A stretch of 64,000 nucleotides of DNA from Saprospiraceae bacterium (GTDB lineage: Bacteria > Bacteroidota > Bacteroidia > Chitinophagales > Saprospiraceae): assembly GCA_020628475.1 (NCBI GenBank), contig JAHDFB010000008.1:1-64000 (forward strand), written 5' to 3'. Shown in pieces: positions 183 through 615 of this stretch (positions within the stretch are counted from its first letter, which is position 1; every line of letters begins with the position of its first letter). The notes beneath the pieces were generated by a model. The model saw nothing but the letters and a program-made list of their open reading frames with translations. It searched no databases and was not told the DNA's origin. A program made the translations under genes and the position numbers.

Positions 183-380
183 ATGGGACAGTTTGGCTCC
201 ATCTTATCATTACAATACAATCGCGGTTTACTGCGTAAAAGAAGCTTTCTTCATATGGAGAAAATGCCTTCATCAGAGACTACTGTGTCTTCTACGTATA
301 GAAAATCGGAGTCTATTAAAAATTCATTTATTCATAAGAAAACCCCATTCCTGAAGCGACTTTGGGATTGGCTGAAGTAA
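183..380 (+). CDS. Small basic protein with C-terminal KRLWDWLK, tandem copy 1
   Basis: A 65-residue protein that I do not recognise. It is very basic and ends in the octapeptide KRLWDWLK. It is a paralogue of the next gene: both begin MG, share a pattern S-[IM]-[LI]-S-[LI]-x-x-N-R-x-L-x-R-K near residues 6-19, have an unconserved hydrophilic middle, and end identically. The DNA of the last nine codons is also identical (28 bp). No signal peptide or membrane segment is evident. The C-terminal segment would form a short amphipathic helix with two tryptophans, so membrane contact or a protein-docking tail are possible, but this is inference. Conserved ends around a variable middle argue for a real gene family. 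The ATG was chosen because it aligns with an ATG in the second copy. A longer overlapping ORF in another frame (118-354) lacks this support. Confidence 0.6.
   Translation: MGQFGSILSLQYNRGLLRKRSFLHMEKMPSSETTVSSTYRKSESIKNSFIHKKTPFLKRLWDWLK
352..379 (+). repeat. 28-bp exact direct repeat, copy 1 (copy 2 at 587-614)
   Basis: The 28 bases encoding the shared C-terminus of the two tandem small proteins are identical at 352-379 and 587-614, while the DNA between is strongly diverged. Copy 1 ends in stop TAA and copy 2 in TAG. Either recent gene conversion of the tail or strong selection on it could explain this. Confidence 0.85.
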
Positions 381-411
381 TTTTTTGTCATTTATTTTAA
401 ACCCGAACACC

Positions 412-615
412 ATGGGATCATCACACCAATCTATGATCAGTATCCGCAACAATCGACGGTTACAGCGTAAAAAATATATTTTCCGTCAAGGTAAACTTGA
501 CAAGTTTAAGCTTATTAATGATCAAGAAAAAGAACTTCCTACATCCAATAAAAAACCAAGACTTATTGAGAAACCGCTTCCGATCATGAAGCGACTTTGG
601 GATTGGCTGAAGTAG
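412..615 (+). CDS. Small basic protein with C-terminal KRLWDWLK, tandem copy 2
   Basis: A 67-residue lysine/arginine-rich protein, paralogous to the gene ending at 380 and sharing its N-terminal pattern and its last eight residues. The frame is open from 385, but the ATG at 412 aligns with the start of copy 1 and is preferred, leaving a 31-nt spacer. The middle is rich in K, Q, E and N and looks disordered. There is no signal peptide. The gene ends only 3 nt before the convergent stop of the AraC-type regulator at 619. Function unknown. Candidates to consider are a small regulatory or signalling peptide, a membrane-active peptide, or a partner of a larger protein upstream of the window; the sequence does not choose between them. 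Confidence 0.6.
   Translation: MGSSHQSMISIRNNRRLQRKKYIFRQGKLDKFKLINDQEKELPTSNKKPRLIEKPLPIMKRLWDWLK

Follow-up and report, generated by a model that had tools for sequence, protein, structure and literature searches.

What kind of protein is encoded twice, side by side, at the very start of a contig, with ends that agree and a middle that does not? The window analysed here, a stretch of 64,000 nucleotides, opens contig C105, which belongs to an assembly with a judged completeness of 61%. Close to its left end lie two short reading frames on the plus strand, ORF1 (P0001; 183-380, 65 aa) and ORF2 (P0002; 412-615, 67 aa), separated by 31 nt between the stop of the first and the ATG of the second. 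Both open with ATG, an in-frame TTG at 385 being likewise open to ORF2, and both products are strongly basic (charge +9 and pI 10.6 for ORF1, +12 and pI 10.9 for ORF2). Alignments and profile ranks define an N-terminal motif in each, SILSLQYNRGLLRK at 198-239 and SMISIRNNRRLQRK at 430-471 (both plus strand), and the proteins end in PFLKRLWDWLK (345-377) and PIMKRLWDWLK (580-612). The common octapeptide lies within 28 identical base pairs (352-379 and 587-614), the last part of a 31 nt repeat with a single mismatch (349-379 and 584-614). The original prediction had described exactly this arrangement, two adjacent frames of 65 and 67 residues that agree near the start in S-[IM]-[LI]-S-[LI]-x-x-N-R-x-L-x-R-K and share KRLWDWLK at the end, and was accurate in each of these points; its view of the pair as basic tandem paralogues with conserved ends and an amphipathic, Trp-rich tail is also supported by what follows.

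The surroundings of the pair are limited on the upstream side. The sequence 5' of the genes is cut off after 182 nt (1-182) and any further tandem copy there would be missing, because the contig starts at the first base of the window. The Bacteroidota-type promoter consensus is TTTG-N17-23-TAnnTTTG; no match with up to one mismatch was found in positions 1-420. Downstream, a convergent ORF of 306 aa on the minus strand (619-1539), AraC-like by eye, ends 3 nt from the stop of ORF2.

The first issue is whether these frames are genes at all, or chance or decayed ORFs with a small stretch of repeated DNA in common. As proof of coding, codon usage is of no help or even tells against the pair: compared with coding chunks, ORF1 has its codon log-odds at the 0th percentile and ORF2 at the 1.7th, both in the non-coding range, and 35% and 19% of off-frame chunks, respectively, reach these values. 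Once amino-acid composition is removed, ORF2 has ordinary codon usage (44th percentile, reached by 9% of off-frame chunks), while ORF1 stays undecided (13th percentile; 25%). Against a chance origin stand the similarity of the two proteins (a search with ORF2 over the whole 3.42 Mb assembly matched nothing else but ORF1 at E ≤ 10, the value being 5.1e-5), a homologue in the same genus with mostly synonymous changes in its tail, and first and second rank among 459 frames with a profile started outside the window's taxonomic family, both described below. We regard a chance origin as very improbable.

A dispersed DNA repeat is ruled out for this assembly, as the tail DNA has only two occurrences (≤ 3 mismatches; none for a reversed-pattern control), both within the ORF pair; a repeated DNA tail lacking a reading frame, which the original prediction had held would speak against it, is thus not present in the assembly at its judged completeness. 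Recent gene conversion of the tail between ORF1 and ORF2 is undecided: all six degenerate codons of KRLWDWLK are the same in both copies, and so, by eye, are 5 of the 8 common degenerate codons of the N-terminal part.

Three other genomes of the window's genus were compared (G001, G002 and G003). One of them, G003 (96% complete), has a single homologue of the pair on contig C9 (CALSOU010000009.1, uncultured Saprospiraceae bacterium AK_MB52). This protein of 78 aa (charge +10) carries both the N-terminal motif, which we call the head (SLKSNRALRRK), and the tail, ending in TPFLKRLWDLLK. It is also the sole relative confirmed among 35 pattern matches in 84,980 species genomes, a collection that may omit the window's own record, and the Trp tail is known in two genomes only, both of the window's genus. 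Over the ten codons of FLKRLWDWLK, ORF1 and the G003 copy show four synonymous differences (AAG/AAA, CGA/AGA, CTT/CTC and CTG/TTG) and one replacement (TGG/TTA, W to L). Four of the five changed codons being synonymous, it is the peptide that has been kept and not the DNA. The remaining genomes of the genus differ: G001 (51% complete) encodes a transmembrane protein with a related head, and in G002 (96% complete) no member was found at the sensitivity used, its two weak matches being unrelated proteins.

What the tail might do is suggested by its physical character. As an 11-residue helix, the tail of ORF1 has a hydrophobic moment of 0.74, a hydrophobicity of 0.76 and a charge of +2, and that of ORF2 0.71, 0.72 and +2; 4.0% and 4.6% of their own shuffles reach these moments (3.6-4.6% over the tails), a share that, with so short a segment, counts against reading it as a membrane anchor. 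AlphaFold2 predicts a helix at residues 55-64 of ORF1 and 57-66 of ORF2, with a pLDDT of 85 and 86 for the last block, and gives low confidence outside the tail (mean pLDDT 62 and 60 for the two models). None of 16,508 11-mers from the 41 large ORFs of the window matches the tail in moment, hydrophobicity and charge together, by thresholds set from the tail itself, and none of the 41 C-termini reaches its moment. A C-terminal cationic amphipathic helix of this kind is what characterises targeting sequences of the FtsA and MinD type, and on such predictions the Trp-rich helix probably lies on the membrane surface.

Searches of existing libraries gave no name for the pair. Neither ORF has any match in Pfam or NCBIfam, and the relatives introduced below score under the curated cut-offs only (14 in Pfam and 8 in NCBIfam; further best Pfam scores, likewise under cut-off, are Ets1_N_flank with E 0.0024, RIC3 with E 0.0036 and SNARE with E 0.0047). 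No relative was found among PDB sequences (best E 0.28). The octapeptide KRLWDWLK and four head peptides are absent from the open-licence PMC literature, where a narrow topical search likewise retrieved none and a broader one gave nothing relevant among the matches listed. The statement that no family with this tail is known holds for the libraries tried, as neither family nor tail is described in Pfam, NCBIfam, PHROGs, PADLOC or the PDB sequences. By their head, the proteins most likely belong to a widespread family without a name, which was beyond the reach of the original prediction.

This link came from the iterative profile search that the original prediction had proposed, in which the head alone connects the pair across Bacteroidota. 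The head motif of the family is approximately S-[LIV]-[KRQ]-x-N-[RK]-x-L-x-[RK]-[RK], directly after the start. A profile of the three Trp-tail proteins (A2; ORF1, ORF2 and the G003 copy), which contains no transmembrane segment, was run over 398 genomes of the taxonomic family and, at E ≤ 0.1, produced 34 rows from beyond the genus, which does not exceed chance expectation. Translations were inspected for 29 of these rows, the other five being left out; 16 proved to be short unbroken ORFs with the head at their start, 13 of which end in a transmembrane helix that is absent from the A2 profile. The other 13 inspected rows were discarded by eye as long proteins, broken frames or sequences lacking the head. 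Profiles from further iterations matched more strongly, with 22 matches at E ≤ 0.01 over 298 genomes of the order (A3; best outside the profile 3.3e-9), 43 at E ≤ 0.001 over 395 genomes of the class (A5), 27 at E ≤ 0.01 over 119 relatives (A6) and 20 at E ≤ 1e-4 over 395 genomes of the phylum (A6), five of the latter outside the class, all with a recognisable head and a membrane helix and two of them identical. These tallies are not member counts, as they include the window's own genome and some rows are long proteins matched by the membrane helix alone. The Trp-tail gene of G003 is the sole A6 match in that genome at E ≤ 0.01, as if it had replaced a transmembrane version.

As these profiles all descend from the window, the search was restarted from single proteins of two other families of the class, each of which had itself first been found by a window-containing profile (E 3.5e-9 and 2.5e-6). 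The first, seedA, began with one protein from taxon f55, matched 15 of 149 genomes and became a profile of 15 proteins with no sequence of the window's taxonomic family; the second, seedB, began with one protein from taxon f75, matched 43 of 147 genomes, all of one genus, and became a profile of 30 proteins; seedAB joins the two (45 proteins). All were restricted to the first 45 residues and run against every six-frame frame of 45 codons or more, 459 in the window and 126 in the G003 region. With seedA, ORF1 and ORF2 rank first and second of 459 (E 0.0011 and 0.0016; next E 0.97), none of 5000 shuffles reaches the score of either, and the G003 gene ranks first of 126 (E 0.064; 8 of 5000 shuffles). 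With seedAB, ORF2 ranks first (E 0.0088; 3 of 5000 shuffles) and ORF1 seventh (E 2; 129 of 5000), and the G003 gene is again first (E 2.4e-4; 1 of 5000). SeedB alone did not recover ORF1 or ORF2 among the 459 window frames (0.7 and -0.4 bits, with 1115 and 2689 of 5000 shuffles scoring as high), and placed the G003 gene first of 126 but with E 0.12 (140 of 5000 shuffles). With an earlier class-only profile, less independent of the window than the seed profiles, none of 2000 shuffles scored as high as ORF2 or the G003 gene, and 3 of 2000 scored as high as ORF1. Judged by these scores, homology of the head to the Bacteroidota proteins is likely, not certain, and the window pair probably belongs to an unnamed small-protein family that extends across the phylum.

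The architecture of the relatives was read from 80 distinct head-bearing ORFs (E ≤ 0.01, with duplicates recognised by the last 40 residues and discarded), which include the three Trp-tail proteins by construction, as the profile contains them. A transmembrane helix (a hydrophobic 19-mer with Kyte-Doolittle ≥ 1.6) is present in 69 of the 80, a share that is partly selected for, since profiles A3 to A6 contain the transmembrane segment. In 61 of the 69 it ends within 13 residues of the C-terminus, and the other eight continue for 68-120 residues past the helix; by length, 61 of the 69 have 77-103 aa and eight 165-214 aa. Such long extensions were noted at L099, L101, L102, L104, L107 and L122, that of L107 being weakly TPR-like (Pfam TPR_2, E 0.00077, under cut-off). 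In 64 of 70 distinct transmembrane members, positive charge is higher in the 15 residues that precede the helix than in those that follow it (mean charge +3.8 vs +0.2), and the N-terminus is therefore placed inside.

Eleven of the 80 stay under 1.6: three are the Trp-tail proteins, three have a half-hydrophobic end (L030, L039 and L043), three are shortened by a stop (L103, L113 and L169) and two are borderline (1.51 and 1.59). The half-hydrophobic proteins have no full transmembrane helix and carry a tail of the KYQSFFDRLAILILNKMGY type that is not strongly amphipathic (moment 0.31 in L030 and L043). A possible sister group (L146:346-633, L158, L159, L160, L161 and L189), in which the head resembles M[SG]xAGHxxDxIKxxxxNRxL and the membrane helix is C-terminal, has one member in the window's genus, in G001.

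The window pair and the G003 copy share with the family the short, strongly basic form (65, 67 and 78 aa; +9, +12 and +10), being somewhat shorter than most transmembrane relatives, and lack the C-terminal transmembrane helix: the best Kyte-Doolittle 19-mer beyond residue 20 scores -0.45 in ORF1, -0.43 in ORF2 and -0.35 in the G003 copy. On sequence grounds we class them as a homologous variant and not as tail-anchored members. Their tail is amphipathic, is kept as a peptide and stands at the C-terminal end.

The original prediction had left open a peptide signal, a membrane-active peptide or a docking tail. Of these, a tail that anchors in the membrane agrees best with the data, since 61 of the 80 head-bearing ORFs have a C-terminal transmembrane helix at the position of the tail. 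Nothing in these analyses pointed to a secreted signal or a lytic peptide. We favour, with moderate confidence, the reading that the pair presents a membrane-tethered basic head whose transmembrane anchor has been replaced in this genus by a surface anchor, the swap being proposed because of the position and the physics of the tail. The two genes would then be paralogues in tandem, part of a Bacteroidota family of small proteins that are strongly basic, tethered to the membrane and oriented with the N-terminal part towards the cytoplasm. The conserved N-terminal motif would act as a functional head that contacts a cytoplasmic partner, and a variable basic linker would span the distance to the membrane. 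Most relatives would be anchored by a single C-terminal transmembrane helix; in two genomes of the window's genus this would have become an amphipathic helix, P[FI][LM]KRLWD[WL]LK, lying in the inner leaflet in the manner of the targeting sequences at the C-termini of FtsA and MinD. Binding of the tail to the membrane, the partner of the head and the effect on the cell are what we infer from this arrangement.

An alternative is that the tail is a motif for protein docking or degradation, the WDW face binding a folded partner and the proteins being soluble. That so short a tail has been retained in the three copies, with the D and the first W unchanged, is more than lipid binding on its own would require and would be explained in this way, but moment, hydrophobicity and charge are those of a membrane-targeting helix, and most head-bearing relatives have a transmembrane helix in the same place, so we consider docking unlikely.

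A second alternative takes the pair for membrane-active toxins in tandem that permeabilise either the producer, like type I toxins, or competitors, like bacteriocins. This would accord with small size, charges of +9 and +12, a Trp-rich amphipathic tail and tandem copies. It is improbable in our opinion, as the pair is a likely member of a family with mostly ordinary single-pass anchors and as the head is conserved too, not the helix alone. Searches for a phage or defence origin also speak against it: 16 pattern matches in viral contigs included no relative, and PADLOC models matched none of the four proteins submitted. A phage or defence origin was rejected on the same results together with weak PHROGs matches (best E 0.018 for the window proteins; E 0.0023 for one relative, to a family of unknown function).

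The genomic neighbourhood bears on a third alternative, a precursor pair for a peptide signal or RiPP with a conserved leader and a variable core. Conserved ends do flank a variable middle, but here the C-terminus is itself a conserved end, a membrane helix ends most relatives, and no neighbour cluster (unannotated) covers more than 4 of 15 loci, window included, the family gene excepted; precursor genes seem highly improbable to us. Nor did a common operon emerge from a second comparison, where no cluster exceeded 7 of 35 loci with the same exception. Tandem copies do occur elsewhere, in 5 of 43 matching genomes of taxon f75, namely G1360, G1385, G1395, G1426 and G1428, and in four further genomes (G849, G1227, G717 and G007), and G487 has a run of three with weak scores (L075:1206-2038, E 6e-4 to 0.04). 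Loci with such tandem small proteins include L145:4788-5901 and L184.

One neighbour is constant within a single genus. In genus g295 of taxon f75, which we take to be flavobacterial, gpmI (identified by NCBIfam TIGR01307) lies downstream on the same strand at all 30 loci (L220-L249), at a distance of 40-48 nt in 18, 92-223 nt in 5 and 674-769 nt in 7. It is also found about 0.7 kb downstream in one genome of taxon f55 (G775; L102/L217), and was found neither close to the window pair nor at the remaining loci of relatives examined. As the 30 loci represent one genus, this linkage is a lead only; it hints that the partner of the head could be a metabolic enzyme brought to the membrane.

A pair that looked like an orphan is thus probably tied to a widespread unnamed Bacteroidota family, for which a search motif is now available. 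The replacement of a transmembrane by a surface anchor, which we favour, would amount to a natural experiment, with one head placed on two kinds of membrane anchor, and if the head works with either, its job would be to tether something to the inner membrane. More tentatively, the whole family may consist of undescribed membrane-tethered basic docking peptides, in which the head recruits a cytoplasmic partner and the anchor is interchangeable. The anchors might in that case be a transmembrane helix, the same helix with an extracytoplasmic extension, or a surface amphipathic helix, a scheme we put forward as equally tentative. If it were true, the window pair would be a natural anchor swap and the anchor would do no more than tether.

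Among known systems, the tail resembles that of FtsA. E. coli K-12 FtsA ends in VGSWIKRLNSWLRKEF, an 11-mer of this tail having a moment of 0.81 and a charge of +3, and WIKRLNSWLR is alike to the [FI][LM]KRLWDWLK of the window and G003 in being a short cationic amphipathic helix at the extreme C-terminus. The MinD membrane-targeting sequence is likewise short, cationic, amphipathic and extreme C-terminal. No actin-like or ParA/MinD ATPase domain was found in either ORF (no Pfam or NCBIfam match), unlike FtsA and MinD. According to a passage in PMC6158289, mCherry is taken to the membrane bilayer by the amphipathic helix from the C-terminus of FtsA or of B. subtilis MinD. Borrowing of the tail from FtsA was considered and rejected: the FtsA of the window's own genome ends otherwise, in WVSTIFDKAKELLESTPDSEF, and the FtsA tails of this and of the three same-genus genomes differ from the Trp tail. 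There is no sign of borrowing, because the genome's own FtsA tail differs and the assembly has the tail DNA at no other place than the pair.

Type I toxins and cationic amphipathic peptides are alike in small size, positive charge and an amphipathic Trp helix, and unlike in that the window pair has a head conserved throughout the class and mostly single-pass relatives and that a toxin context was not seen. A further close counterpart is the unnamed tail-anchored Bacteroidota family itself (MSFGGSVSAMITSLKNNKRxR.. type), which has the same S-L-K-x-N-R/K near the start, is similarly small and strongly basic in its N-terminal part and occurs as tandem copies in several genomes; it mostly ends in a transmembrane segment, whereas the window pair and the G003 copy have an amphipathic Trp helix there. 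Neither single-pass proteins of small size nor amphipathic targeting tails are new as kinds; what would be new is the proposed swap of one anchor for the other within a single family.
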